Assembly (NCBI GenBank): GCA_030998225.1
Contig: JAPYXD010000466.1
Coordinates: forward strand, 7,915,001-7,979,000
Length of the DNA: 64,000 nucleotides
Reading direction: 5' to 3'
From: Diplolepis rosae
Taxonomy: Eukaryota; Arthropoda; Insecta; Hymenoptera; Diplolepididae
Under the pieces are notes generated by a model that saw only the letters and a program-made list of their open reading frames with translations, did not search any database and was not told where the DNA came from. A program made the position numbers and the translations under genes. Below, piece after piece: positions 1 through 57,400 of the stretch (position 1 is its first letter; the number at the start of each line of letters is the position of its first letter).

Positions 1-2347
1 TGCATTGCTCTGTATACTGCCTGAATGTAAGACGACACGGGGCATGCTCCCTGTTCACAGCTGAAAGGTATGCACCCATTATCGTATCGATTTGCGAATG
101 GATGGATGCAAATCGTCTATTCCATTCCTTATCTGCTTTTGCAAATACCTTGCAAGGTATAAATACTTCCGAGCCTTCACAGAAGAATCTGTTTAGAAAG
201 ATAAACTTGATGGACGAGTATATTGTCTTGACAAAATCTATCTCTGCAGCAAGCTCAGACCATATCTTGCATGTCGTGTCAAAATGAACATCTGCTGCTT
301 GCTGCTGTTGCTCAATGGTCCCATGAAGTTCTATGGCTTGGACAGCATCATCTATAAGGCCTGCAGTTATAGCAACGTCATCTTTCACAAGTATGCCTTT
401 GAGTTTGGCCATCCTAATACAGTATAGGCTCATATGTACATTGAGAACGGTATCAGCAGTCCCTGTCCATCCTTGGAATAGTCCCGAGGGCAGGGGGCAT
501 GATTTTATAAATCCACGCTTGTTAAGAATTGCCTGCACACCTTCCCATATGGAGTTAAGGCAAAATGACCGTGGTGCTTTAGTTGTCTTGACTAAATAAT
601 CATGGTGCGCCGACCATGCAGATCTGTCGCCTGACGGGCTCCACCCTGAGACATCATTCGAAATGATGATCACACGCTTGTTGACCCCTGGCCTAGTCAT
701 TTCACATATTTTGTTAAATGATCTCTGAATCTTGTAGTCAGGTTTTCTGATGGTAGCTCCATTGTATAAGTTGGCTATCGGAATTGCACATCTGTCGTAA
801 GTGGTGGTCGCTTCCCTGGTTATCGCATCTGCAGACCATGTTTCCCTAGCCTTCTTCCAAGGTTTTGTGTTCTCATTCTTAGCTGCCATCATCGCTATGA
901 TGTCCCATCTTAATGTCCGGTCGCATATTCCTTCTATCACGAATTCAGGATCAACCTTGTGAGCTAGTAACGGTGCCTCCTTAAGTGCATACAAGAGCTC
1001 ACTGTGTTCATGTCTTGGGATAGTTTTCATTTTCTCCATGTCCTTGTACGGCTCTGCTTCTGGCCTTACTCTGGTGACATTTGCAGCCTCCCAATACCAT
1101 GTAGGAACAAGGTCATTGAAGCTGAAATACCCCTCTATCCACGCTTTTCCATAGTCGTCTTCATGCGGTAGAGTGAATTTACCTTTACAGCACTTTTTGA
1201 ACCAGGGTTCATCCGACGCATTGTAGCCGGTGATTGCTCTGTATGAGACTGATGCCCCATGTTTGCAGAGTGCCTTACATAGGTCATATATTTTGACGTA
1301 ATTCATGAACCTGTGGAATGCACCTGTATCAGCCTTCTTGGGGTTCTTCATTGTTTCCGAAGCTTTCTTGAAGAGCAATCTCGGGTCGCAGTCAGGTGAT
1401 GGGAGTCCATAATACAGTGTCGATAGATCAAGTTTAGCCCTATCTGGTATGTTCAGGCTGTAAAGGTGATCATGCCACTGCACTGGCAGATCGAGTATGT
1501 CCCTGATATCAGCTTTCAGTTTTTCTGATTTCTTATCCCACTGAACATCTAATGTTTCCCCACATGAGTGGAATTCATTCTGAATTAGTGCCAAAGACTG
1601 TTTCATCACCCTTGCCAGACTGTCACTAAAACCACTGTAAATCATTGAATTTGAAATCCATAACCTGCACTTATCCATAGGTCCCACTATGTCATATCTT
1701 GGTTGGTCAAGCCAGCCTGTTGCTCGATAGTTGCATGCATATTGATAATTGCCTTCCCATCTCTTTGCAGTCAGGTGTAGCTGATCGAGTGTGGAATGGT
1801 CTATAACGTATATGGCATCTGAATATATCAAGAAGAAAAGATTTACAACTCTGTAAGTGACAGTGGTGCCCAAAGATCTGCCAGCCCTTGTCGAAGAAAA
1901 AGACAGCTCCTCAAGGTCAAACGGGGGCATACCCATTTTCATATTCTGATGTGCCTCTCTGTTTTCTGGTGAAACAGATGAAGTGAGCATAAAGGAAAAG
2001 GCTGTGTACCAGTTGTGCATCTTCCCCCATATTGCTGGTCCCCTGCAGTGAGGTATACAGCCATTTCCTTCAGCTTCAAATACATTTCCCCCTCGTCTGC
2101 CAGCTATTGCTCCTGCTGCAAATATATCATTGGCAAAACTCCAGGCTATTCTCATTTGGTCAGAAACTTTTGCGTTGGCTACTGCCTCGTACTTCCCGCT
2201 GATGTAGCCATGGGTGATCCTGAAAGCTGCAGAGCTATCGCAATATATTGGTAAGTCCTTATAAGAATTCATGATCCTTATCATGGTATTCCCTACTGTT
2301 CTTGAAAAGATCACATCGTCAACGCTTTCATCATTTAATTTAATCAT
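1..2347 (-). CDS. Endogenous viral element: RNA-virus RNA-dependent RNA polymerase (L-like), open and 3'-incomplete
   Basis: An open minus-strand frame runs from ATG at 2347-2345, with a stop codon immediately upstream, to the left edge: 782 codons with no stop. Polymerase motifs come in the right order and spacing: motif A DVSGWSP with its Asp at about residue 565, motif B QGWTGTADT at about 627, and motif C LIDDA with the first Asp at about 666. About 115 further residues follow before the edge. In viruses this enzyme copies RNA; here it lies in nuclear DNA beside transposons, so it is an integrated copy. The IDD form of motif C is, to my knowledge, reported for Qinviridae, but motif B also resembles dsRNA-virus forms, so the family is uncertain. 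Base composition looks less AT-rich than the flanks. There is no splice need and no visible damage. The polymerase call is fairly firm; the lineage is not. Confidence 0.75.
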   Translation of the reverse strand, partial: MIKLNDESVDDVIFSRTVGNTMIRIMNSYKDLPIYCDSSAAFRITHGYISGKYEAVANAKVSDQMRIAWSFANDIFAAGAIAGRRGGNVFEAEGNGCIPHCRGPAIWGKMHNWYTAFSFMLTSSVSPENREAHQNMKMGMPPFDLEELSFSSTRAGRSLGTTVTYRVVNLFFLIYSDAIYVIDHSTLDQLHLTAKRWEGNYQYACNYRATGWLDQPRYDIVGPMDKCRLWISNSMIYSGFSDSLARVMKQSLALIQNEFHSCGETLDVQWDKKSEKLKADIRDILDLPVQWHDHLYSLNIPDRAKLDLSTLYYGLPSPDCDPRLLFKKASETMKNPKKADTGAFHRFMNYVKIYDLCKALCKHGASVSYRAITGYNASDEPWFKKCCKGKFTLPHEDDYGKAWIEGYFSFNDLVPTWYWEAANVTRVRPEAEPYKDMEKMKTIPRHEHSELLYALKEAPLLAHKVDPEFVIEGICDRTLRWDIIAMMAAKNENTKPWKKARETWSADAITREATTTYDRCAIPIANLYNGATIRKPDYKIQRSFNKICEMTRPGVNKRVIIISNDVSGWSPSGDRSAWSAHHDYLVKTTKAPRSFCLNSIWEGVQAILNKRGFIKSCPLPSGLFQGWTGTADTVLNVHMSLYCIRMAKLKGILVKDDVAITAGLIDDAVQAIELHGTIEQQQQAADVHFDTTCKIWSELAAEIDFVKTIYSSIKFIFLNRFFCEGSEVFIPCKVFAKADKEWNRRFASIHSQIDTIMGAYLSAVNREHAPCRLTFRQYTEQC

Positions 2348-3660
2348 TTAATACATTTATAACGGGTAACCTCCGCTGAAACGTCAAAAGAATAAAATCT
2401 TGAACAATGCGGACCCGAGGACTCGGGATTACCTTCGGTGTCACCGGCGTTACTAAGGCGGCTTCTAAACTGAGCGCCTGGCGTGTCTCGACGCCATATT
2501 TATACAAGCAAGAACCCTGAAAATAAGAACTTAGCATGCAAAAAAAAGGCGAAGCCAAGCAGGGTTTTCGGCTAGGGTTATTATGGATTCGGGAGTCCGT
2601 ATCAGGTAAAGGTTTGGAGGTTAAGGAAGGGATCTTAACCTAAACATAGGAGCTCTCATGCAAGCCAAAAAAAGAAAATAAATTAAGCTGCGTACAATTT
2701 TAACGAGAACTACAATTTGTTTATTAATGGGCAAAGCCCTGGCTCGATATAAATACAAAAGACCTCGAATAAAATTAATATAATATCGTGGCCAACATGG
2801 CTCGTGATATAAGAAAAGAAGCAGAGCTCTGAGAGAGCCTGAGAGCCACGGTTCATGAAAATAATAATTTTAATACGGCCCGGAATAGAGTCTCAAAGAC
2901 TTACCGAGGATCTGGCCGCAATCTCGCGCCTAGTTGCGTCTAAATCAAAGTCCATGTCGGCGTCCATGGGAAGTAAAAAAAACTATCAAATCCTTTGAGG
3001 TTATTTTGCGCTCGGGCAACAACGACAGAATAAAGCTGCGCGCCAAAGGTGTCGCGCAGTTTTATTACATCAGCTGGAAAGGCTGCGCACGCGCGTGAAG
3101 CTCAGGTTTGCGCGGGCGACTCGTCTTGTGAGGACGACGGCGCCAGGCAACCAATGAGCTGAAGCGTCTATCGTTCAGCATGCCCCATTGGCTTAAAACG
3201 TAGAGGGGTGCGTTTAAACTACGTTGAGTTTGTACTGCACAACACAGCAGTTACAAATAGACAAGGCTAATATACAATATATAATACAATATCTAATTGT
3301 TCCAACCCGTCATGCCCTCTCTATATTAATTATAATAATAATGGTGCGACGGTGTTGGAAACCATGGGCTGCAGCACGTGGTCGTTTCAGATGCCATGCC
3401 TGCTGGGTGATGCCCTCTGTGGCTTGCCTGTGAACCCCTCTGCGTGCGATGGTAACACAGCGATCTCCTTGGCGGCGCCTTTCAAGCTGGTGTTTTTCAA
3501 TGAAACAAATAAAAAAAGAAAACGGCCAGAAAAACAATAAAAAATAAAAGAATTTTATGAGCAGCTCTCAGACTATCCCTGACAGTTTTGAGTTTTAATT
3601 AAAAGGTGGCTTGGGCTCGATCCTGTCGTTGCCGGTCGAGGCAAAAAAAGTTAACGTAAT
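2348..3660. other. Unassigned intergenic sequence upstream of the viral ORF
   Basis: No convincing gene. Short open frames at 2340-2558 (minus) and 3224-3540 (both strands) overlap each other and have no recognisable motif. Parts at about 2900-3150 are noticeably richer in GC than the surroundings. I see no terminal repeat that would mark the edge of the viral insertion. Confidence 0.5.
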
Positions 3661-3668
3661 TTACCACG

Positions 3669-4160
3669 TTACACTTCATATTTAATTCTTTTTGGTATTT
3701 CTGCTGGTTTCTTTGAGTGATTTTGAATGGGTACTTTTATAATTCCGTTCTTAATTTTATATATCCCGTCCGGTACTGTGTCTTGATCGATTATTAATAC
3801 ATCTTGATCGTCTCCTGCCGCCGGGATTCTAAATATTTTTGATGTTTTTGCCGGTATAAAATCTCCATCTACTTGTAACGGTAATTTCTTTTTATACAAA
3901 ACTAAAAAATCTGATGTAATTGTATATCGGTCATGTTTCGAGAAAAATTTGAGTCCGATAATTCCATCTTCCGGTAGAGGAAAATCGTTGGAGATAATAT
4001 GAAATATGTGATCTTTATTGAAAAAGTTAAATTTTACGGTTTCACTTGAAACGTGTTCATCCCGTCCCATAACAAATTTTTTAAAGTGTTTTTGTCTAAC
4101 GTCTCGTTCGTCTAGGATCTTTTCGTTTATCAGGTTGATTGATGTTCCAGAGTCGACTAG
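3669..4160 (-). pseudogene. Gypsy-type pol start: retropepsin-like aspartic protease
   Basis: The pol frame overlaps the end of gag. Close to its start it reads LLVDSGTSINLI, containing the DSG active-site triad of retropepsins (bases about 4120-4160). The frame stays open to the stop at 3669 with about 160 codons, covering the protease and linker. In this family the protease cuts Gag-Pol. No reverse transcriptase motif follows, so the element is cut off here. Confidence 0.75.
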
Positions 4161-5044
4161 AAGTCGGTAACTTCCTGTTCTTCTTCTTGCTCTAATAGAT
4201 CTGAGTCTTCTGCATACGGCAGAAACTCGGCTGAGTCCTCGAAATCTTTTGTTTCTTGTACTTCTTCCGGTGTCATATCTATTGCATCCGTGCTTTCCTC
4301 TTGCAGCATTCTTAATGGATGTGGGGGTCTTTTGACGTTCTGGCCAGGTTGAAAACCCTGCCTAATGTGACATTGATTTGCAAAATAACCTGTTTTACCA
4401 CATTTATAACAATTCATTCTTACCCTGTCTTCCAGTGGTAGTGAATGATTGGGTGTTTTTATTCCATTAGTGTTGGCGTTAGGTCGTGATGGTGGTTTCG
4501 GCCTAGGTAGGTATTTCAATACAGGTCTCGTGACTACCTGTGTTCTTATAGGTTGACTTTCTTTTAACCACATTTCGGTTTCTATGGCATGCGTCTGTGC
4601 CTCCGTTATAGTATTGGGTTTTAAAAGTCGTATCTGCATACCTATCTCTTTCCTAAGGTTTAAAAGATATCGGTTCACTGCTTCTTGTTCTTCGAGCTTA
4701 ATTTTCAATCGACGTTCGGTAGGATTGATATGCTGTGCCTGTACAGCGTAATTGATTTCGTTTATAATCTGTCTGAATCTAAGTGTACAATTTTGGACAG
4801 ACTCAGTTGCTCCTTGTTTACAACTCTCTAGTTTTGATTTTAAAGCTAAAATTGAATTTGATGATTTTAAATTTTGTCTTAGTGCATCATATAAATCTTC
4901 GTATGAATTTATTTGTAGATATCTTATTGCTTTTTCTGCGAAGCCAGTAATTTTATTTGCCATAATTAAATCCAGTAGTAAATTAGGTTGTGAACATCTC
5001 GATTTTGCTCTCTTTATAGTTTTAATGAAATCTTCTATTCCCAT
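4157..5044 (-). pseudogene. Gypsy-type gag, capsid and zinc-knuckle part
   Basis: A frame of 295 codons. The first 150 residues look like a retrotransposon capsid region (helical, with a run resembling the usual SCTLRFRQIINE-type segment). A proline-rich linker follows, then a CCHC zinc knuckle reading CYKCGKTGYFANQC at about residues 212-225, which in this family binds element RNA. The tail is strongly acidic. The stop at 4157 overlaps the protease frame, the usual gag/pol arrangement that needs a ribosomal frameshift. The break at its 5' side makes the copy non-functional as it stands. Confidence 0.8.
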
Positions 5045-5559
5045 GTCGTCTTGTCGTTGATCCCTCGTATAGTTTCAATCGCGGTCTTTGCGTTGTTTCT
5101 GTCCTCTTCGATGATGTGTGGTGCTGAGGGGACGGGGAATCGTACGAAAGGCTGTGTGTTGATGTTCTCATTTCTGAGTCGTAAATTTTCTTGTGCTTGC
5201 TTGTCTTCTCGCTCTTCTCCGGACGAAGAGTCATTGGTCACCTCTAGGCGTTGTGTCGTTTCCCTGTCGGTTTCCACTTTTCCCGAGCAACCTACTTTCA
5301 CTGCCAGCCTAGAGATATCTTCTATTCTGTTGTCGTTTTCTCTTTTAAGCATATTGAAAGAGAGATTGAGAGATTCCATTTGGGCGAGCATTCGTCCTAA
5401 CAGTTCTTCCGTGGTGTGGGAGGGGGACTTGGCCCGGACGGGTGAATGAACTCTAGACATTGGAGCTGTCGCGAATGGATCGTTTAGAGAAAGTGACAAG
5501 TCGATCTGGTACAAAGTACCGTTTCGATATTTGTAAAACGCCGGTGTGCCTATTTTCAC
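5035..5559 (-). pseudogene. Gypsy-type gag, N-terminal part
   Basis: A frame of 174 codons with a hydrophilic, Glu/Arg-rich stretch in its second half. It ends with a stop just where the next gag frame begins (they overlap at 5035-5044), so one insertion or deletion near 5050 probably split a single gag. In the element, Gag would package the RNA into particles. No catalytic domain is expected. The assignment rests on its position between the leader and the zinc-knuckle gag part. Confidence 0.6.
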
Positions 5560-10968: not shown

Positions 10969-11640
10969 TATAATTAATACTGAATGCAGATATTACATGA
11001 AAATTAAGTATGTACATGCTGTGACTAGTATGTTACTAAATAATAGAATCCAATTCTACAAAGACCTAAGTAATAATATAGAAGATTATTACTAAATAGT
11101 ACAAAACATCAGGTACAAAGTACTTCACAAGCAGAAAATCACTTAATTAAAAATCACCAGAGTATCACAAACAAGAAATTTTAAATGTCAAACTAAATTA
11201 GTAACTAATTCAACACCGTAATTTTTAAACTACATGCAAAAGTAATTCTTAAATGAAAACAATGATTTTATTTATTATTTTTTTATTATTTATTTATTAT
11301 TTTGTTTATTATTGTAATTATTTTTGATTTTTTTCTTTTAAGAATTGTTTATTTATTACTTTTGCATGTAGTTTAAAAATTAAGGTGTTGAATTAGTTAT
11401 TACTTTAGTTTGACATTTAAAATTTCTTGTTTGTGATACTCTGATGATTTTTAATTAAGTGATTTTCTGCTTGTGAAGTACTTTGTACCTGATGTTTTGT
11501 ACTATTTAGTAATAATCTTCTATATTATTACTTAGGTCTTTGTAGAATTGGATTCTATTATTTAGTAACATACTAGTCAAAGCATGTACATACCTAATTT
11601 TCATGTAATATCTGCATTCAGTATTAATTATAAATTAGGG
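10969..11640. repeat. Core palindrome of the foldback element
   Basis: The arms (about 10969-11250 and 11340-11640) are near-perfect inverted copies, for example GCAGATATTACATGAAAATT against its complement. They surround an AT-rich loop of about 90 bases with TTTATTATT repeats. This is the inner continuation of the arms of the 7136-12394 element. Confidence 0.85.
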
Positions 11641-17222: not shown

Positions 17223-18745
17223 GTAATAAATCATTTCAATTTGCTTAGAATACTATAGACTCCGCTTTCTATGTTCGAAAATCAATTTTGGCATGAATTT
17301 TTTCAAGAAATACGTTGTGTTTGGAAGCAACCGTCGCGTTATCAAATAAGGAATTTTTTATTGAATAAAGAATATTCGAAAATTCAAGATGAAGTTAAGA
17401 CAAGAATTGCTGATGCAAAAGCTATAGGACTTCAATGTGATGGTTGGTCTACGGTTGTTCGGCTCATGGATTGAACCTGCTGATTGGTGATATACTAAGT
17501 TCAAAAACTTTGAAAGAATTATTTTCTCAAGCAAAGAGGTTGTAAAAAGTGTCAATTTATCACATAGTGTAAGAGCAACTTTTAACAAAATCCAAGAATT
17601 AATACAAAATGAAGAACAGAAAAGAAGAAAGATGAACTCCAGGCAAAGAAGTATTTTGAAGAAAAAGCACAGCGTTAGAAAGAAACGGAAAAAGTTGACA
17701 AGGAAATATTGTCAGAGAATGAAGAAATACAGGCTAAACAAAAAAGAATATCATTGAAACTACCAGGTAAGACTAGGTGGGGATCAGCCATACTTTGTTC
17801 TGAAAGTGTTATCAGGAACAAAAGTGTTTTAAAAAGATTAGCGATCGCAGAAGGTTTTCAACCTTATTTGTCCACGGACGCTCGGAAAACTATTTTAGAC
17901 CACAAATTCTGGACTGGGCTTCAATTTTTGTACGAATTGTTTACTCCTATATTGAAGTGGATCACGATCCTTGAAGGGAATGGATGTAATCTCAACTTGG
18001 TAAAAAAGCTTTTCCTGACATTATGCAGATTTGCCAAAATCATCTTGTTGAATCACCATTAGCGCTTGAAGAAGATGAACAAATTATTAAGTTTATCACT
18101 AATCGGCGTAAATTTGTTTTGCACTCTATACATTTTGCAGCAAATTTATTGGACCTGAAGCTTAATGGAGAAAATTTAAATCGTGATGAACAACTTGAAG
18201 GACATGAGTTCATTTTTAATAAAATTGAACACGTTTACGGAAATAAGAAAATTCTGATTTCCGAAATACAAAAGGACTTTGCTGAATATAGGAGTATCAG
18301 AGGTTTATACAGCAAAAGCTTTGTCAAAAGTGCAGCTAAATCTTCTGACCCTATAACGTGGCGGGTCGGAATGTTCTGCGGTACAGAATTAAGTTCTATC
18401 GCAGCCGATATATTAAGCATGCCTGCATCAACTGCTGCAACAGAACGCAGTTTTAGCGCATATGGAAACATACATTCAATAAAAAGAAATCGATTAACAA
18501 CAACTAAAGCTGGGAAATTAGCATATGTATCACATAATCTGAAATTGTTGAATTCTAGTACCAGAAAGAAGCAGATGAGAATAGACTTCTCGCGTTCATC
18601 GGGGATAGATAAAGGTAAAGAAAATACCTGCACTGAGTCCAAAAGTGGAGATCTAGAAGACTGGTCAGATTCCGACGAGGACAGTTACGAAAAAAATTCT
18701 ACAATTGAAGCAGTACAGCTTTTTGACTCTGATGATTCTACATAA
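17223..18745 (+). pseudogene. hAT-family transposase, decayed
   Basis: Three open pieces follow one another. At 17271-17474, AIGLQCDGWST is the hAT block around the first catalytic Asp. At 17709-18062, LPGKTRWGSAILCSES is the conserved K-T-R-W-G-S segment. At 18023-18745, PASTAATERSFSAYGNIHS is the C-terminal dimerisation signature, followed by KRNRL. A degenerate stretch (17475-17708) and frame changes break the protein. The N-terminal BED zinc finger is not in this piece but occurs in the short hAT copies nearby. The long CAGGGTG element sits just upstream. Confidence 0.85.
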
Positions 18746-19398
18746 TTTTAATGATTACGTGTTATATTTCGTTAAGTTAATTTGCATTTTTACTTCACGA
18801 TATATAATATTTATTCTTCTTTCTATGTTGAATAGTTGATAGACAAACAGCCCTTGAAAAGATTATGAAGTACGAAAATGTTACTGCCAAAGCAATATTT
18901 TAGTATTCTTATATGTTCTAAGGAGTTTATTTAAATATTTAAGACTGATATGTACTTGCTCAGCACTAAAATGAGATAAGTTTTTTTATGATAAAAATTC
19001 TGTACCTGAAGATATTAATAACGTTAGTACATAACAGTAGCGTAGAGGGATTTCGTGGAGGAGAATTGGTGGTACAGTCACCGCCGGGAGGCTTTGCCAA
19101 CTAACATAAAGAAAGGAACAGAAAGTTTAATTTTGTTTAATAAAACTCACCAATTTTTCCAGTTCATTAACAAAAGTACTCTTTATTTAAACTTTAATAT
19201 ATCCTTCCCCCCCTTTTCTAACAGCTTCATAATTTTACCCCACACTCACTCACACGTCCATCCATTCCATGCACACTCACACCAGAATAATTTTCGTCCG
19301 TCACCTTTTCTTATTTTTCCTGGAAGAGAGAGAGACCTTTGTTGCCCCTTTGCTCTGTCTATCACGGCAGCGCTAGAATTGTATGCTGCAGCGTAATA
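18746..19398. other. Unassigned intergenic sequence
   Basis: The 3' flank of the hAT remnant, then sequence with CACACTCACACG-like runs and a GAGAGAGAGA stretch at about 19325. An open frame at 19055-19396 has no motif and is probably chance. Confidence 0.45.
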
Positions 19399-20512
19399 CT
19401 AAACAAGCTCTCGGGGTATAGTGTATTTGCTGTCCTTAGAATGTAGCACTTTGTCATTCAGATAGTTTATCCACAACATGAGATTGTGTGGGGCCCATCC
19501 ACAAGAATCCGATTGAGACTCAGAGTACAACAGTGAAGAGACATTAGGGCAAAGCAATACACGAGGGAATACTCCTACCTGATACTTGTCTTCAGGCAAG
19601 AGAGTTCTTCCTATTCCTGCATCGAATAGGGTGATAGTAATGTGGGACAAGGAAGCTGCGATTCGCGACAAGGTAATCACTTTCGGCTCAGGAACAGCCT
19701 TTTCTTTAGGACTAAAAGTTCCAATCGCATATGTGCTCGCTAAATGGTCCATGATTTTCTCGAGAGCAGGCAGAGATTTCTTTTTAATGTTTAGCCAGTT
19801 TGTACTTCTAGTAAGGAAGATAGAGATACAGTAACTCATAACATTGTTAAAGCTTGTGTGATCGAACCCTAAATCTACATATCCAGGTTTGCTGACCACC
19901 TTCTCATGCTTTTCGAGAAGGATTTTAAAAGTGACGGCTGGGTCAAAACTTTGATAAGCAAGGATTTCAGCATTCTCTTTGATGGCGTCAACGCAAGCTT
20001 TGATGGCCATCACATCAAAACACTCAATTAGAGTTTTGACAGCACCCTCTGTCATTCCTGTAAGGGCAGATACGGCGAGCTTGCTATGCATGGCTACATC
20101 TTGTAGCAGCTCTTCTAGCTTTTCAGTTCTTAGGGAGTTCATCTTGAACTTGCTCTTTCTCAAAGGTCAACTTTCTTGAGAACAACTGAACGACTTGATC
20201 AATGGACTTAGGGGAAGGTGGTTTCCTCAACAGGATGTCTCTTCTTCTTGGAGTTAGGTTCTTCAAGGAATCAGAAGCAGGGACCGATGTCGCTTCACTG
20301 CTATGGCTCTCCGTCTGAGATGACTGGTCTCTAATCTTCGTAGAAGATTTGATAACCTATGTCTCGGACCGTAGGGAAGGGCTCCTAACCGCTTTCGCTT
20401 CTAACACCAAGTCAACCTTCCTCTCCAAAACTCCTAGTCTTCTGCTAATTGTCCTCAAAGAGTCGTAAAGTCTTCGCCGTTCTGCTACAAGAGCTTTCAG
20501 TTCTTCCTGCAT
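19399..20512 (-). pseudogene. Endogenous viral element: phenuivirus-type nucleoprotein-like gene, broken
   Basis: The main frame (20163 to 19399, 254 codons) shows the layout of tenuivirus/phlebovirus nucleocapsid proteins: AYQSFDPAVTFKILLEKHE, a segment LTRSTNWLNIKKK, then VITLSRIAAS and FPRVLLCPNVSSLL. This protein coats viral RNA. Upstream on the same strand a second frame starts at ATG 20512. It has a coiled-coil-like first 45 residues, hits a stop at 20357, continues open to about 20160, and joins the nucleoprotein region only through a frameshift. So at least one nonsense and one frameshift break it. The extended coiled-coil front part is unusual for this family. The assignment is by pattern only. 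Confidence 0.6.
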
Positions 20513-20586
20513 ATTTTCCGTTTTGAATTGTATGAGTGGTATTCTATTTTAGTAAGCCTGACAATGTGTAATATTCATTTATTGAA

Positions 20587-20587
20587 T

Positions 20588-20622
<35 letters not shown>

Positions 20623-20633
20623 CTCTCCTCTCC
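20587..20633. repeat. Simple repeat: C run followed by (TC)n and (CTCTC)n
   Basis: A run of about ten C followed by about 18 TC dinucleotides and CTCTC units. It lies between the nucleoprotein-like locus and a short palindrome. Confidence 0.9.
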
Positions 20634-20649
20634 TCTAGAAAGGCTACGG

Positions 20650-20812
20650 CAGTGATCCCAGAACGTGGGAGCTGGAGGCCCCCACCATAGATGCCTCGAG
20701 ATCGTTGTGTCTTCCTCATTCAACCAACCTATGGTAGTCGAGCGAGAAAGAAGCCATGAGCTGGTGGGGTCTATGGTGGGGGCCGCCAGCTCCCACGTTC
20801 TGGGATCACTGG
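20650..20812. repeat. Short foldback carrying a dispersed GGGGGCC/TCCCAGA motif
   Basis: Arms of about 42 bases (CAGTGATCCCAGAACGTGGG, then GGCCCCCACCATAGA) are inverted around an 80-base loop. The arm sequence is related to single copies at about 29866-29905, 32402-32447 and 38574-38623. Confidence 0.8.
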
Positions 20813-20819
20813 GCTACGG

Positions 20820-22449
20820 AACATTACAATGCTGGAATCACAAAATCTTGTTATAATAAAAATCAATTATTCGAAACGTAGACACTATAAACGTAACTTG
20901 TAACTTAGTAAATTAGTAAAAGATAGCACATTTTTCCCGCCTAGATCGAGTTCTTCTTTCTTCTTGGGTTATCCATCAAGATTTAACCCTTTCTACTCGA
21001 TCTGGAGTGGTCCTACTTGCGTACGGTTACGTTGCGGATCCTGCCTTGTGTGTCTTTGCCTCTCTACCCGTGCCAGGTGAGAGAGTGCGTTTAAGTGGCA
21101 ACATGCCACGTTACAATACTAAAAGTTTTGACATTTGGAAAATATCTATTGTGAAAAAAAGTTTTATGTATCAATAAAAATAGGCACTGAACTTTAAATT
21201 TTTGTTATCTGTGTCAAAATAGTAAATTTTGATACTAGTCTGTCAATTGGAAAGTGTAGTTGACTTACGTGTGCGCAGTACTTTTTTCTTCATACCTTAC
21301 TAAAAATATCACTTTTAGCATGATTTTCAGTACTAAAAGAGGAACTTTTTGTGCATGTGTTATAAAAACATATTATAAATCTAAATAATTTATTGCATCA
21401 AAAGAAGAAATATCTGAAAATCTATTTCTTCCTAAGTTCATGATAAATTCTCTCGATTGTTACGACCCACCGCTGCAGTTGGTCCCTCTCTTGCGTTGAT
21501 TACATAGCTGGGTTCTGATTAGTTGGTCGTGGAATCCGTTTGCCGTCGTTGACTCGTTGAAACGAGTACCCGCGAGGAAGGATTTGGTTTTAATGATCTA
21601 GATATATGTTCTCTGTTTCAAAAGCCACTCAACGTTTATTATTATTGAGTTTAATAATTGTTTTTGCTTTACACTGTTTTACAATACAACTGTCAGGCCT
21701 TGCTTGCCTGACTTACCGACAATTTTTACAAGTCCATTCTCGGCCGAAATATTTCTAAGTTTGTCGAACAATGAGTCGCATGTTTATGTTTTCAAAGGAG
21801 CTTTTCGAGATTCAAAATCTGCCGTTTTTGAGCTCTGCAGCTATATTTATAATAAGTCCTTTAGGTGGGATATAACCACCTCTCTACAGCCTTCAGCCAA
21901 TCATAATGCTGACGTAACACAATTTTATGTTCTATCGACGAATGGACGTATTGCTCACGCAGGACCGTCCATCAAAGTTAAGTCGCAGAATGAGTCATTC
22001 GATGATTGACATTTATAAACACTCTAAGATCAAATATCGTAATTCCTTGTAATGTTTATGAACTCTACATCCGGTCGTTTTGGAGCTTAAGGCACGTTTT
22101 TTAAAAATAAATAGCCCTATGAGTCATCCATAACCAAAACAATGACGTAATCTCTCGCATTCCTAGTACTCTTGCACGTGTTTTACAATTCTGTGTCGTA
22201 ATTACTGATTATAATGTCGCAATACCATATTTAACGTCGCAATTAGAGACAGAGGTGCTACCTTTTACTTATTCGCCTATCTATATACGCAGATTTAGAA
22301 GTTACGGAAGTTACTGATAATCTAACTACTTGGATTCGAATTTTTGCAATGAATTCGTCGGTAATTCAGACCGCGCTTTTACCAACATATTTGGTTATGA
22401 GTGAAAGGGTGCTAGAACCCCTTATAGCTAGTACTGGTAACCGGCTCAC
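20820..22449. other. Unassigned intergenic sequence with LTR-like fragments
   Basis: Contains GC-richer patches (about 20940-21120 and 21450-21600) beginning or ending in GTTACGAC/GTTACAATA-like sequence, which could be LTR debris. I could not pair them. A frame of 101 codons at 21704-22009 (plus) has no recognisable motif. Nothing else supports a gene. Confidence 0.4.
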
Positions 22450-24780: not shown

Positions 24781-25217
24781 GAGTTCAAAGAGTTCTGTTT
24801 ACAGTTCTGGATTCTTCTCAATTAGTTCTAAAAATAAGTCCAAATACATTTTATTCTGAAATTAAAATTCACAAAACATTCGTACTTCAAAGTATTCAAA
24901 ATAATTTAACATACACTCTCGATTACATTGCCTTCATACGTATTCCACGAGGATCATCTGCGTAAGATAAAGAAGCCACAAAGATCTCAGTCATCATATT
25001 CATTGAAAACAAGGGGAACAACGGTGCAAACTCATCCACGTCCAGCAGAAAAGAAAAGCGGTATTCAGTTCGCAACGCCAAGTTCGGGAATCAATCGACA
25101 GGAGAAGGAATCGCTCATCTACGTGCTTGAAAATAATACAAAGGTAAGCTTGTAGCTAATAAGAATCGCCCTTCCTTCCTTAATTTGTCGTATCCTATCT
25201 AAGTTGAATAAATAAAA

Positions 25218-25931
25218 ATGGCAGCACGCATTAAAGAAATCGTCCAAAAACGTGGAAATATGAAGGCGCAAATTACGAATTTTCGGAAATTTATCGAAGA
25301 AAACAAAGAAGTAGAAGTGTCAATCGAAAACATCACGCGACGAATAGAAAAATTAAATAAAACGTTCGATCCCTTTGAAGATATATCGGACGAACTCGAG
25401 TTGCTCGACGAAGAAAGGGCAGAGGAATATTCTACCGCGCGGCTTGAAATACAAGAAAGTTACTTCAAGGTACTCGACGCAGCCGACGAAATAAAGAAAC
25501 GAGCTGCCTCGCGTGACCAAATTATTATGCCGGTACGAAACGAAATCGTCAACAATTCTTCAAATCGTGTTACTAAACGGAGAATTAAACTTCCTGACGC
25601 GATACTTCCGACTTTTAACGGCAAATACGAAGATTGGCTCGCGTTTAAAGATGGCTTTACTTCTATGATCGACTCTCAAGGGGATCTTTCAAACATTGAA
25701 AAATTGCAATATTTAAAAAGTAGTTTGAGCGGCGAGACAGAAGATAAAATAAAAACACTCAATATAACAGATGACAATTATCAACGCGCTTGGACCATTC
25801 TTAAAAAAGCGTATGCCGATGATCGCTTAATAATATCAAAACACATAAATTTGATCTTATCGTTACCCGTGCAACACCGTGAATCAGCCGACGGTTACGC
25901 AAACTGGCTGACGATACTCAACAACACGTAG
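25218..25931 (+). pseudogene. BEL/Pao gag, capsid part
   Basis: A frame of 237 codons. It opens with a charged coiled-coil region (about residues 10-100), followed by LPDAILPTFNGKYEDWLAFK, the conserved start of the BEL/Pao gag core, and then SNIEKLQYLKSSLSGE, also typical. The frame ends early at 25931, and the same protein resumes in another frame at about 25940, so a frameshift broke it. The ATG at 25218 has a start context of AAAA. Confidence 0.85.
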
Positions 25932-25939
25932 AATCACTT

Positions 25940-26397
25940 TCTTCCCTCGGTGTGAACGTAACAGAAGAAATCCTCGTTCAAAATCTAGAAAACAAATTAT
26001 ATAAAACTACTGCTGATAAATGGGAAGAAACGTTAGAACGCGGCTTATCAAAAAGAGACTCAGAAAATTCAGATAAATGATAAATGAAGCTGAATATAAT
26101 AAGGGAAATCGGGCTCAAAACAAAAGAAAGGTTAAAAACGGTTCGAGACAAACTTTCCTTACGGTGTCCGGATATAAATGTCCCATATGCAACGAGTCGC
26201 ACGCTCTATATCGTTGTAAAAAATTCAAAGATTCATCGATATCAAAACGAAAAGAAATCGTAGTAAAAGCGTCATTATGCTTGATGTGTTTGCGTAGTCA
26301 CGCCGGAAAGGAATGTAAATTCCAAAAATGCATGATTTGTGACCGCAAAGAAAACTATTTGTTGCACGAACATCAATCGTCCGAAAGGAAAGAATGA
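25940..26397 (+). pseudogene. BEL/Pao gag, zinc-knuckle part
   Basis: Continues gag with an internal stop near 26080. The open piece 26077-26397 holds CPICNESHALYRCKKF and then CLMCLRSHAGKECKF, two CxxC knuckle-like units characteristic of BEL/Pao Gag-Pol just before the protease. It binds nucleic acid in the intact element. Confidence 0.8.
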
Positions 26398-26917
26398 CAT
26401 GACGAACCTACAGGATTCAGCGCGCGTTGCATAGCTTCTATTACACAATCATTGCCAAACGAATTAATAACAACAGCGCGATTAGCTATAATCAATCAAG
26501 ATGGTAAAGTTATTACATGTTGCGCGTTACTCGATACATGCTCGACTATTAACTTAATCAACGAAGATTTGGCGACAAGCTTAAATTACCAAAGAAAAGG
26601 TGCAGAATTCCTGTAGGAGCACTCAACCAACTGTCAACGACAACCAAACATGTGGTTACAGCGACCATACGATCATTACAGAATGATTATTCAAGAACAA
26701 TGAACTTTTTAACGATTCCTAGCATATCTGAAGCTAAAGATTCTGGCGGATAGAAGACGGACCAGGTAAAACACAGCAGGCAGAAGAAGAAAATTATTGC
26801 GAGAGTCATTTTACAAAAAACGTATCGCGCAATGAGACCGGCAGATACGTAGTCGCTCTTCCTTTCCAAGAAAAATACACTGAACTTGGAGAATCATACA
26901 CTCAAGCGCTTAATCGT
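26398..26917 (+). pseudogene. BEL/Pao aspartic protease region, degenerate
   Basis: At about 26480-26580 the plus strand reads TCCALLDTCSTINLI, where D-T-C-S replaces the usual D-S-G of retropepsins. That replacement is common in BEL/Pao. Frames change afterwards, and a stop at about 26751 separates it from the reverse transcriptase. Confidence 0.65.
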
Positions 26918-27934
26918 TTGAACTCTCTTTGCCGCAAGTTCCAGAAAAATCCTGAGTTTCATACAAAATATAAAGATGTATTGGAAGAATATATCACTTT
27001 AGGACACATGTCTGAAGTGAAAAATGCACCAAGGGATATTGGATTTTTTCTACCACATCACGCGGTTACAAAGGAATCAAGCGCGACTACAAAACTACGA
27101 GTCGTTTTTGACGCATCTGCAAAAACAAGCAATGGTCTCTCATTAAATGACATTCTCACCGTCGGACCAACTATCCAAGACGACATCGTTTCTCATCTAC
27201 TCCGATTTCGCACACACAAGTACGTAATATCCGCCGATATAGAAAAGATGTATAGACAAGTACTGGTACGGAAAAAGGATAGAATGTATCAGCGAGTTTT
27301 ATGGAAAATGAATGAAGAAGTAAAAATTTATGAATTAAACACAGTTACCTTTGGTTTAGCTTCCGCACCTTATCTCGCAATACGAAGTCTCAAGCAGTTA
27401 GCCATCGACGAAGGACACAAATTTCCTCTTGCTGCCAGCGTACTATTAAAGGATTTATACGTCGACAATTTATTGACTGGCTCAGAAACAATTCAAGAAG
27501 CTTGTAAGATAAGGAATCAAATTACAGCATTATTAAAACTTGGTTGTTTTCCATCGCGACAATGGGCATCGAACAATTCTGAAATTCTTAAAGGATTGAG
27601 TAAAGAACAAATAGATTCTCACTTCCAACTCGACGATGATCACACTGTAAAACCTCTTGGTATTTCATGGAACGCGAAAACAGATAGTATAGTATATACG
27701 GTAAATGCTCCAAACATCAAACAAGCCCGTTCAAAAAGAGCAATATTGTCGGAAATCGCGAAGATCTTCGATCCTCTTGGTCTATTAGGTCCTGTCATCT
27801 TATATGCAAAAACCATAATGCAAGATTTATGGAATGAAGGACTTCATTGGGACGAATCAATACCTCTACACATCTATACTAAATGGACTGACCTTTACAA
27901 GCAACTACCAATGATAAATAATATTGCCTTTTAA
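26918..27934 (+). pseudogene. BEL/Pao reverse transcriptase
   Basis: A frame of 338 codons, the longest intact piece of the element. It has TKLRVVFDASAKTSNG (the conserved LRVVFDAS), ISADIEKMYRQVLV (motif A with its Asp), TFGLASAPYLA (motif B) and LYVDNLLTG, where the usual YVDD box reads YVDN. The missing second Asp should abolish polymerase activity. IFDPLGLLGPV is the well-known segment following the RT. The ATG at 26918 is probably internal to pol. Confidence 0.9.
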
Positions 27935-36443: not shown

Positions 36444-37061
36444 ATTGAGATAACCAAGTTGACGTCACAGGCCATGTGGTAGGGATAGACTGTAAGTTAG
36501 GTTGTTCTTGGACGAAAGAAATATATGGGAAGCATTGGGAAATTGATGAAACAAAATTTTCTAGCTTAAAAGTAAGTCATAAATTTATTAATAATTATAT
36601 TTTTCAAGTGCAAAATTCATTTCCGCTTATTTTGAGTACCTACTTGTCGCTTGTCATTCTATTAATTTTTTAATATAAAATAAAATGTCATAAATTTTTA
36701 GGTTATGACCGTTTGTTTTGAAGTATTTGAAGAATGTATCGATAAGCATGTTCTCGTTTTCAACACATTCTTCAAATACTTCAAAACAAACGGTCATCAT
36801 AACCTAAAAATTTATGACATTTTATTTTATATTAAAAAATTAAAAGAATAACAAGCGACAAGTAGGTACTCAAAATAAGCGGAAATGAATTTAGCACTTG
36901 AAAAATATAACTATTAATAAATTTTTGACTTACTTTAACGCTAGAAAATTTTGTTTCATCAATTTCCCAATGCTTCCCATATATTTCTTTCGTCCAAGAC
37001 CAACCTAACTTACAGTCTATCCCTACCACATGGCCTGTGACGTCAACTTGGTTATCTCAAT
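36444..37061. repeat. Near-perfect 618-bp palindrome (candidate hairpin-RNA locus)
   Basis: Arms of about 295 bases (36444-36737 and 36765-37061) enclose a 27-base loop. Each arm, read inward from its outer end, encodes nearly the same frame containing GIDCKLG, SWTKEIYGKHWEIDETKF and then a splice-donor-like GTAAGT (left) or a weakened AAAGTAAGT equivalent (right). Read-through transcription would make a long double-stranded RNA. I do not recognise the peptide. Confidence 0.9.
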
Positions 37062-45400: not shown

Positions 45401-48400
45401 GATTGCGCCCATCTCGTTGATGTAGCTTAGTGCTGTCGTGTTGTTGTGTTGTCGATTCTCAACAAGATTTCGCACGAGCTATTATTTGTTGCAAAACATT
45501 TTAAGGCGTAAGAAACCGCTGTAAGCTCTAAAAAATTAATGCTCTCGTCCCTTTGATCTTTGCTCCAATGGCCATGTGTCGATTTTTTTCGACAGAAGGC
45601 ACCCCAAATGTCCTAGAAGCATCTACAAAAATTTCTAACGAGTATCTTTCATCTCTAATTGGATTGCAAAGTGCAGAATTCTTTATATTTACGATCCACC
45701 TATCCCGACCTTCGTGGATATATGCGGGCAACTGTGTAGTTGCGTCAAAATTCCCTTCCTTATCCTTGAGGGCTAAGAATTTACATCTTTTCAGATCTTT
45801 GACGTAAATAGGACTGTATTTTACGACTGGACACGCTGCCACACGATGTTTCTTTTCCCTCGAAGAACTCCGTGATTTCGAGAAAGAATCGCGACTTCTT
45901 GAATCGGACACTGAACTTAAACGCGAATAATATTGGATCTATAACTTAATTCGTGCGGTTTGCTAAGAAATGGCGTAACTTGATTATTATTCCATCGTTT
46001 CAATATTCCGAACATACGTTGGAAAGCTACCGTCACTGTGCGTCTTTTTCTGTATATATCATTCATTTAAAGCGTAAACAACAATAATTTTTTTCACTCA
46101 AATATATCGAACTTTGTGCCTGAAAAAGTGTTTTTTGCGGGGAGTTCTTCTTCATTACTTTAATATCAAGAAAACTGCTGCCAAAAGTCATCGTATTTTG
46201 GTGGAAGTTTATGGTGAACATGCTCTAGCTGAGCGAACCTGCCAAAAGTGGTCTGCACGATTTAAAAGTGGTGATTTTGGCTTGGAAGACGAAGAACGTC
46301 CTGGGCAGCCAAAAAAGTTTGAAGATAAAGAACTGGAAGCATTACTCGATGAAGATTGTTGCCAAACACAAGAAGAGCTCGCAGAATCTTTGCGAGTCAC
46401 TCAAGCAGCCATTTCAAAACGTTTAAAAGCAGCCAGATACATTCAAAAGTAAGGAAATTGGGTTCCACATAAACTCAAGCCGAGAGACGTTGAAAGGCGG
46501 TTTTGCATGTCCGAAATGCTGTTGGAACGCCACAAAAAGAAGTCATTTTTGCATCGGATTGTTACTGGTGATAAAAAATGGATCCATTACGACAACCCCA
46601 AGCGCAAAAAATCATATGTGAAACCCGGCCAACCAGCCGAATCAACGGCAAAGCCGAATATCCATGACGCGAAGGTAATGCTCTGTATTTGGTGGGATCA
46701 GAAGGGTGTGCTGTATTATAAGCTACTAAAACTGGGTGAAACCATCAATGGAGAACGCTACCGAACACAATTAATCCGTTTGAAGAGAGAAATGGCCGAA
46801 AAACGCCCGAAAAATGCGACCAGACACGAGGCAATAATTGAAGAGTGGACATTCGAAAGGACGTAACCCACATTTCTGAAATTTTATACGGCGGCACAAA
46901 AACGTTCCCATTTCGACAATTTTTAACCGAAAAATCTGCAACTCGGATAAGTTGCTAATTACATAGGAAAATGTCGAAACCCATGAGGCAGTTCATTTAA
47001 AATTGATACTTCGGTAGATATTCGCCCGTAAAGTTATGCCAGGGCGTAACTCGACGTGTATCGGCAATCAAAAGGGCGAATATCCATGGCGCGAAGGTAA
47101 TGCTCTGTATTTGGTGGGATCAGAAGGGTGTGCTGTATTATAAGCTGCTAAAACCGGGTGAAACCATCAATGGAGAACGCTACCGAACACAATTAATCCG
47201 TTTGAAGAGAGCAATGGCCGAAAAACGCCCGCAATATGCGACCAGACACGAGGCAATAATTTTCCATCATGACAACGCTCGGCCCCTTCTGACTACCATT
47301 TGTTCCGGTCGATGCAGAACGCTCTCACTGGAATACGGTTCACATCAGAACAGGATATCAAAAATTGGCTTGATTCATTCTTGGCGGCCAAGCCGGCGCA
47401 GTTCTTTGGGAATGGAATCCACAAATTGCCAGAAAGATGGGAAAAAGTCATAGCTTCAGATGGGCAATACTTTGAATAATACTATTGTACATGTTTTTCT
47501 TAAATAAACGTTCCAATTTTGAAAAAAAACCGCACGAATGAAGTTATAGATCCAATACGGATCCAAACTTTTTGACGCGATGCGAGCTTTTTGAGATTCG
47601 CGTCGGTACGCTCAAGTTGCTCGATTTTTTCTTGGAAAACTTAAATCGGAGCAAGAACTTGAGCCTTTGTCGGTGAACCCCGTGTTTCACTGACCTTTCG
47701 GGATGGCGATTCTGACATCCTTGAATATGGCGGAAAAGAATTTACAATTTCCCAAATGAATTATGAAAAAACACGTCTTGATCGTAACCGCACAACAAGA
47801 CGAATGAAGTAGGCGCATTATGAAGGACGGGTCCTCCACATGGAGAATAGTTTCGATTTGTTATTCTTTAAAATTTGTGGTCGTAACCGAGCAGCTGGCG
47901 CTACTACAAGTGATCTATTTGGACGAGACACTTGAGTATAATTGAAAATCTCCATACTTGAACAGAAATTGCAATTATTAAGCATTTGTGTAAAATTATA
48001 AATTAGTTTTGAATAGTTACTGGAGTGCGATTGGAATCAAATTTTAATTCGTACTTTCGAACAACAGTTCATTTCTAATTTGAGATATTCTAAATTCTAA
48101 TCCTTTTAGAGTATAAAATTCTTTCAACTTCAATTCATTTTTGAAATTAATTCTTTTATCTTTCAAGAACAATTTTACAATTTATTGTTGTCAATTTTTT
48201 ATATAAATTGTATCTAGGTATATGAAAAAAGTGAATTTCTAAACTAAATTTTTTAATTTGTTTTTGATGATAAAGAAGCTCTGAATAAACAGCACGAAGC
48301 GATGTCTCAAGCAATGAAATTAGCAGAGCGAAATGAAGAATTAGAAAAAGAATTGAGAGACATCGATCATATCGCTTTGGCAGTTGAAGCAGACTGCAAT

Positions 48401-54400: not shown

Positions 54401-57400
54401 CAGACAAATTCATTATATTCAATCAACTACTTCTTCCTGGAAACTCGAGAAATAATAACCAAGAATAATCTGTAGGCGGGGTTAGAACACAGTGAAGCAC
54501 GATTTCATCTCAAAAGAACAGCGTTTATGGCAGATTCGAACTACATGGAGGTTGCAGAGTGACAGATCGAACAAAGAAAATGAAAATGTAGAGTAGAGGG
54601 GGCAAAAAGATGGCAGTGTTAACCATAACAAAATGAATACAAAAAGGTTGAGAGAATTGGGCATCTAACACTTCCCTTCAATTTCAAAACTCTTCATAAG
54701 ACAAAAGTTTTAACAGTCTTTGAGTCCTATTCCACGAACACAATTATCAAACTTCACTCCCGATAAAGGTTTTGTTAGAACATTAGCTGTCATTCCTTTG
54801 GTAGGTAAGAATTTTATGATGAGCTGATAGGTCTAAATCTCTTGCCGAATGAAGTGATGTTTGATGTCCACATGCTTGGTTCGCGAGTGGAAAACGGCAT
54901 TCTCGACCAATTTTCCCGCAGATTGATTATCATTGAAGATGGTGTTCTTGGTTACTTGCGTCTACGTCGTTTGGCCTTGCGGGTGCCCCCGCTTCGTCGT
55001 CGGTTTCAGGATCTTCAGGTTGAGGTACTCTTTCAAAGCCATGGAAAGGCTCATGCTCATCTTCGGAGTCTTCTTCGTCGTGTTCGTCGACATGAGCCTT
55101 GACGTGTTGATTTGGGTGTTCAATAGGATCAATGATGCTGGCGTCCATCACTATTTTCCTAACGATATGGTTTCCGGGTAAGGATTGTGAATAGGTACGA
55201 CTTGGGGTGTTATTCCTTGGAAGATCATCATGCTCCTTAGATAGGCTGGATTGAAACTCATTCAGAAATTTTACATTTCGAGATATTTGAATCTTTCGTT
55301 CGTCGGGTATCCAAATGCGATAAGCTTTGGATTCATTGAAGTATTCAACGAAGAATCTTGGGATTCCCTTGGGCTCGAACTTCCCTTTTCCCTGGGACTT
55401 ATCGAGTACGAAAGCTCGTTTGCCGAATGAGCGGAGGTGCGAGAGATTTTGCTTTTGCCCGGTCCATCCTTCCATCGGGGTTATCCCGTCGGGTAACACT
55501 TTAGTGGTGCATCGATTTCTCGTATAATTTGATCTTCCGTCTGAGTTGATTCTCGACAAAATTCTTGTAGTCTTTGAATTTCTGCACGGCTTCGCCTTTA
55601 TTTTTCAAGAAATATACAAGACATACCCTCCTGTAGTCGTCTATGAAAGTTATGAAATAGCGTGCGCCTCCTGATGACTGCGTGCACATCGGCCCGCAGA
55701 GGTCTGTATGCACCAGTTCGAGAAGCTCCGTTGAAAAATTCGCGTGGGTTCCAAAAGGAATGTTCGACATTTTACCGGAAATGCACGACTTACATTTAAT
55801 TTCGTTAATCGTTGTCTTGATCTTCAGGCCGTTTGCGTTCCCGTCCTTGGCGAGTGTTGCCAGGTCACGTGCGTTGAGGTGCCCTAAGCGGGCGTGCCAC
55901 AAATCGACGTCGGTCTTGAATTCCGTACTATCTGAGATGGAGCTCGCGCGTTGCTCGCGTTCGCGGAGGTAGAATAAATCTCCAATGCGCTCGGCAATTA
56001 GCATTGTTTTACCGAGAGGATCTGTCACGACGGCGCGCGATTTCTGGAAGGTAACTTCGTGGCCACGATCCACAATTTTCGCGATTGACATGAGATTCGA
56101 CCCTAAGTCCGGCATATACAGGGTGTTCTTTAACGTGATAACGCCGTTCGGATTATCCGTGATCGCTATATGTAGGTCACCTTTCCCGATTGCGCGAGTT
56201 TCTGAATTATTTGCAAGTCTAACGTTACGTTTTTAGCACAACAGTGGGCCTCATTCGACTTTTCTTTGTTGTTGTTTGCGTTCACGTTTTTTTTATGTCA
56301 ACACTCACTTTCCTTGTGTCCCTTTTTGTGACAATAGCCGCACTTGTATCGTTTCTTTGCGTCCGTTTTCGCTTTATTTTGGTTATTGCTATCTCCACCA
56401 CAGCTGTTTTTGTAGCCACTCGCGCCACCTTTGTCCTTTTGCTGGAATTCACTTGAGAATTTTTAACTCTTCGCCAACATGGCGGCGCTTTTATCGTCAC
56501 TCGTCTTTTGACTCCTCGCGATGTGCTCCTCTATAATTTTCATTTTCAGGAATTCCACGTTTGTAAGTCATCGCGGGATTCGATGGCACAATGGAAATGT
56601 TCTAAACTGTTCGGCAGGCTGTATAACAGCATAATGGTGAGAAGGTCGCCATTTATGTCAATGTCCATGGCTTGCAGTTTATCGTCGTCTTCGTTTTGCA
56701 TTTTCTGCTGCGTGAGATGTTTGAGGAGGGCCGCCTTTTGTGCGGGTCCTTTCGAGGCGTAAACCGAATCGAGTTTTAGCCATACCTCGCGAGAAGTAGT
56801 GCAGCCTCGAATTTGCGCGAGTTCCGGAGGGTTGATCGCTAGGATCAGATCGGCCTTGCGATCGTTCGCTGTTCAAGTTTTAATGGAGGCTTGCGATTGT
56901 GCGAGATCTGCGCCTTCTCCTTGCTCGACGGGTTTCACGATTTCACCGGAGATGTATCCCCAGGTATCGTTTTTCACGAGTGAAGCTCCGGCTTGGATGC
57001 ACCACGTATCATAGTTGTCGCAGGAGAGCGTTTCAAGCCTCGTTGTCGTCGTCGCGTGCGCCATTTTTATTTGGCTGGTGACTCAACTTTTTTTCGGATT
57101 TCGACGCAATTATTCGTGCTTAGCACTAATCTGGGTCCATAACCTGTATGCGGGATTATAACACAGTGAAGCACGATTTCATTTCAAAAGAACAGCGTTT
57201 ATGACAGATCCGAACTACATGGAGGTTACAAAGCGACAGATCGTACAAAGGAAAAGAAAATGTAGAGTAGAGGGGGCAAAAAGGTGGTAGTGCCAACCAT
57301 AACAAAATGAATACAAAAAGGTTGAGAGAATTGGGCATCTAACATAATCAATCAAGAATTAAAATTTAAGAGGGTTCACTTGTGTAACATTTTCAAAAAA

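Follow-up and report, generated by a model that had tools for sequence, protein, structure and literature searches.

A partial qinvirus-like polymerase gene, probably a young viral insertion, in a transposon-rich animal genome

Members of the family Qinviridae (order Muvirales) are exogenous, bisegmented viruses, with an L segment of 5.6–6.6 kb and a capping domain (PMC10721934). Olendraite and colleagues describe the IDD triplet as unique to sequences matching the Qinviridae profile (PMC10101049); the triplet is also reported from yue/qin-like viruses of fungi, oomycetes and a diatom culture (PMC11417338, PMC9927876), and from four Bigelowiella transcripts that match the genome of that alga (PMC9927876). 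Algae have been proposed as the true hosts of most qin-like insect viruses (PMC9927876), and the authors of PMC8513489 state that, as of 2021, biological characterisation had yet to be carried out for any qin-like insect virus. In the ant Camponotus floridanus, the endogenous viral element EVE7 is described as a qinvirus-like RdRP fragment, the first ant element of this lineage according to its authors (PMC6540820). Here we report a qinvirus-like polymerase fragment at one end of a 64,000-nucleotide stretch of DNA (hereafter referred to as the window). We consider it very probable that the fragment is a young endogenous viral element, in which part of the L gene from a negative-strand, qinvirus-like RNA virus persists as a DNA copy within an animal genome, probably that of an arthropod, with many transposons. 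The element is real and long, is probably young and belongs to a kind published before, as the description of EVE7 indicates. By that description, EVE7 is likewise a fragment of a qinvirus-like polymerase in the genome of an insect, and may be the same kind of locus. Unlike the exogenous, bisegmented Qinviridae, the window element would be an incomplete DNA copy only. Being joined to animal DNA, such a fossil would link the qin-like lineage to an animal germline.

A polymerase frame with a foreign CpG level

An open frame of 782 codons without a stop lies on the minus strand at window positions 2–2347 and runs to the window edge, and the chance of a stop-free run of this length at the same base composition is approximately 1e-21. 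Its product contains ENTKP, NDVSGWSP, QGWTGT and IDD, which we take to be motifs F, A, B and C, respectively:

2..2347, minus strand: predicted fragment of a qinvirus-like RdRp (L protein), 782 codons, its N-terminus missing and its final ~30 codons off the polymerase frame
860..874, minus strand: motif F-like ENTKP, residues 492–496
635..658, minus strand: motif A NDVSGWSP, residues 564–571, with D565 the presumed catalytic aspartate
458..475, minus strand: motif B QGWTGT, residues 625–630
347..355, minus strand: motif C IDD, residues 665–667

The four motifs occur in the order F, A, B and C with the presumed catalytic aspartates, as in viral RdRps, and a lysine is present in the D region downstream of the IDD. 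Judged by these motifs, the frame at 2–2347 codes for part of an RNA-virus polymerase.

The polymerase stretch is foreign to the window in its CpG level. Its observed/expected ratio is 0.48, and all 238 overlapping windows of that length taken elsewhere are higher (minimum 0.62, median 1.11). The frame contains 54 CpG dinucleotides, compared with 85 ± 4.8 after synonymous shuffling. In 400-base bins, the ratio is 0.28–0.59 on the viral side, steps sharply from 0.59 to 1.12 in the next bin, and is 0.75–1.61 in the bins up to 5600, marking one visible join, in one assembly:

2330..2350, strand not applicable: approximate junction between viral-derived and host-type DNA, placed by the CpG step and the end of the relatives' similarity

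Similarity to qinvirus-like polymerases

A search over 5.8 billion predicted proteins, with 4,961 candidates scored, returned five proteins: the near-identical P0002 and four relatives, P0004 (58% identity to the frame), P0005 (51%), P0003 (48%; 968 amino acids) and P0006 (43%). P0002 has 784 amino acids, differs from the window frame by 3 substitutions across the 782 shared residues, and is found on two contigs no longer than 6,585 bases. Motifs A, B and C are conserved in the relatives wherever the alignment covers them; the IDD triplet recurs in P0002, P0003 and P0004, and P0005 and P0006 stop short of motif C. A profile search of the protein database (6,364 candidates) returned the identical five proteins; its length filter, 0.55–1.75 times the query, bars full-length L proteins, so this search is silent on known qinviruses. 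In IMG/VR, P0003 gave zero pattern matches, and alignment A1 gave 57, none of which was confirmed. P0004 departs from the other relatives shortly after IHSQ (P0004 residue 571), earlier than the window frame does, and judging from this departure may itself be a broken copy.

The initial annotation proposed a comparison with RdRp profiles. The frame itself matched no Pfam family at E 1 or E 10, whereas residues 758–924 of its relative P0003 match PF00946 (Mononegavirales polymerase) at E 0.0063, with 14.7 bits against a cut-off of 27 bits. This match directly follows motif C of P0003, at 745, and P0003 is the sole matching member of the six in the alignment. A domain of this type, Mononeg_RNA_pol, has been reported in a qin-like virus of spider mites (PMC11512250). 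The frame matched no family in NCBIfam and gave two matches only in PHROGs (E 0.3), and the best hits of a PDB sequence search, at E 0.27 (single sequence) and 0.3 (profile), were to unrelated proteins.

We also obtained two predicted structures, both poor: a 592-residue piece with a pLDDT of 41.3 and a 382-residue palm piece with a pLDDT of 34.9. A Foldseek comparison of the 592-residue model with BFVD gave 140 matches at E ≤ 10, 8 of them at E ≤ 0.001. Ranks 1–9 of the 140 are all qin-like polymerases, with E values from 4.9e-18 (rank 1) to 0.0029 (rank 9), and the next RdRp among the best 50 inspected is at rank 15 (E 0.8). The best match is the polymerase of Linepithema humile qinvirus-like virus 1 (UniProt A0A2Z4Z3J7), at 40% identity over 648 columns including gaps; the other eight entries come from viruses of a springtail, thrips, a crab and others. 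Six of the nine names contain 'qin'; of the others, the taxonomy files Nackenback virus and Xinzhou nematode virus 3 in Qinviridae, and PMC9927876 places Beihai sesarmid crab virus 4 there. The top-ranked virus is itself filed as unclassified Riboviria. Since the TM-score is approximately 0.13 and the pLDDT 41, the BFVD signal reflects the amino-acid letters rather than the fold. The palm piece gave 38 matches in BFVD, none at E 0.001 and no qinvirus among those listed, so that the nearest position of the qinviruses, obtained from the ranking of a poor model, was not reproduced with this piece. A fold search of PDB gave 68 matches, none at E ≤ 0.001.

The suggestion in the initial annotation of a divergent, possibly qinvirus-like group gains backing from the nine top BFVD ranks and from the IDD of motif C as a mark of Qinviridae (PMC10101049). 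As the triplet is also reported from yue/qin-like viruses not filed in that family, IDD is a lead, not proof. On this combined evidence, we regard the classification of the frame as qinvirus-like as well supported, without a direct sequence alignment to a named qinvirus. A0A2Z4Z3J7 is known from its database record as belonging to a virus, whereas the window element would be a host-genome copy; our literature search found no paper naming Linepithema humile qinvirus-like virus 1. Moreover, the Qinviridae L protein has a PRNTase capping domain, whereas the window frame ends before the position where such a region would be expected.

Truncation and frame change

At the N-terminal side, the similarity to the frame starts at residue 92 of P0003, 89 of P0005 and 89 of P0006, opposite frame residues 14, 8 and 34, respectively. 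Beyond 2347, no similar product was seen by eye in any of the three minus-strand frames, and tblastn with the relatives gave no match in the flank. As the relatives' matches begin so far in and do not continue beyond 2347, some 55–80 N-terminal residues are missing, and the ATG of the frame differs from the polymerase's own start.

The opposite end, which lies within the window, differs from P0003 in another way:

1..90, minus strand: 3′ end of the frame, where the similarity to P0003 switches to another reading frame

In the final ~30 codons, the P0003 similarity continues in this other frame as far as the window edge. In ungapped BLOSUM62 scoring against this part of P0003, the other frame reaches 50 and the open frame, as far as the change, 46, and neither score was reached in 1,000 shuffles; the third frame scores 17, which 569 of 1,000 shuffles reached. 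The frame change is judged against P0003 alone, taken as the unbroken state, and the argument reverses if P0003 is the altered sequence. P0004 diverges earlier and so does not help in deciding which sequence changed frame. P0002 stays in the frame of the window and ends two residues beyond the window edge, at a stop or a contig end; because it continues in the same frame, the ending is common to another copy or to another individual's assembly. Taken together, the best reading is a polymerase fragment that is truncated and frame-shifted, broken at both ends.

A second viral fossil

The window contains another frame of apparent viral origin:

19402–20142, minus strand: nucleocapsid-like frame of a phenui-like fossil, with a match to Pfam Tenui_N at E 4.3e-5, just under the cut-off

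Its product shares 54% identity with P0012, the nucleocapsid protein of Hubei bunya-like virus 2, and a search returned ten related proteins among 706 candidates. The frame halts opposite residue 255 of the 318 of P0012, and the similarity to another protein, P0016, continues past the stop to 19324. The CpG observed/expected ratio is 0.54 in the fossil and also low in its 1-kb flanks (0.82 and 0.69), and the five windows with the lowest CpG ratios apart from the polymerase (0.62–0.71; 18348–21693) overlap it. No other nucleocapsid-like frame was found in the window, and this one is of phenui-like type, not a qinvirus protein.

Origin and age of the insertion

The missing 5′ part, together with the general behaviour of such elements, suggests that a host retroelement supplied the reverse transcriptase that copied the viral RNA, and that the copy would have been inserted without its 5′ part. 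The frame change may date from the copying step or from after insertion, would in either case precede the separation of the two known copies, and the long run would still be open because the insertion is young. Under neutral drift, each 1% of divergence is expected to introduce 0.89–1.14 stops, and the frame plausibly (P 0.05) stays free of stops up to 2.6–3.4% neutral divergence, by a count based on substitutions. Since a neutral frame stays open to approximately 3%, youth suffices and selection need not be invoked.

These estimates bear on several statements of the initial annotation. Its description of an intact polymerase frame holds for the open run from the ATG to the window edge and for the presence of motifs A, B and C, but not for the ends, both of which are broken. 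Its proposal of a recent integration agrees with the run being open, with its foreign CpG level and with the ending common to P0002, and the insertion is probably young. Its premise that stops are the rule in viral fossils is a weak one, at least in ants: PMC6540820 reports that 238 of 434 endogenous viral hits lack a stop codon, 16 of the 238 being near viral protein length.

Three other accounts of the locus were weighed. An assembly chimera, in which viral cDNA or the contig of an infecting virus was misjoined to a host contig, would explain why the viral part reaches the window edge with a single visible junction and why the CpG level changes sharply there. We judge it very unlikely, because an infecting virus would not be expected to tolerate the missing N-terminus and the frame change near the end, the same ending is present in P0002, on its two short contigs, and the window also contains the unrelated nucleocapsid fossil. 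Still less credible is a retrotransposon reverse transcriptase or cellular polymerase in place of a viral RdRp. Such an origin could account for the retroelement remnants nearby and for the lack of a Pfam match even at E 10, and the algal IDD transcripts that match their host genome (PMC9927876) lend it some support; yet RVT_1 picks up a different window frame (26738–27931, at E 4.4e-6, just under the cut-off) and not the polymerase frame, the nine best BFVD matches are all qin-like RdRps, and the CpG level of the frame is foreign to the window.

That selection has kept the fossil, either as an antiviral small-RNA template or as a translated or domesticated product interfering with infecting qinviruses, is compatible with a young endogenous viral element and differs only on why the run stays open. 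Approximately 760 open codons with conserved presumed catalytic residues would fit it, as would two qin-like sequences of a sea louse reported to yield both viRNAs and piRNAs (PMC10287012) and an Aedes element that, according to the title of PMC7522710, limits its cognate virus. We nevertheless consider selection unlikely, since youth accounts for the open run and the polymerase is broken at both ends. If the young element has any role, the likeliest would be to supply small RNAs directed at related viruses. Should the insertion be confirmed, its site in related species would give a date for qinvirus infection and show whether selection acts on the frame.

Transposon remnants and repeats in the window

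Outside the two fossils, the window contains remnants of several types of mobile element, families from which we take the genome to be that of an animal, probably an arthropod:

3669..5559, minus strand: Ty3/gypsy-type-looking retroelement remnant, gag-like at 4157–5074 and with a protease-like motif in 3669–4361
17990–18745: hAT remnant
25212–27934: BEL/Pao remnant
46078–47453: mariner remnant, its transposase in pieces, with an internal near-repeat (46655–46839 and 47077–47261, 97%)
54930–56232: copia remnant

The gag-like matches at 4157–5074 are below the Pfam cut-offs, and the frame at 3669–4361, whose DSG we take to be the protease-like motif, has no Pfam match. The Ty3-like remnant shares the orientation of the polymerase fragment and is 1.3 kb away from the junction; a link to the insertion was considered and rejected, as no LTR pair and no shared repeat was found, leaving proximity only. 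Rfam gave one tRNA match in the window and ARAGORN none. Long inverted repeats at 10969–11632, 36444–37061 and 60627–61080 (84–94% by self-BLAST) look like fold-back or MITE-type elements, and the 285-base arms of the repeat at 10969–11632 are 97% identical.
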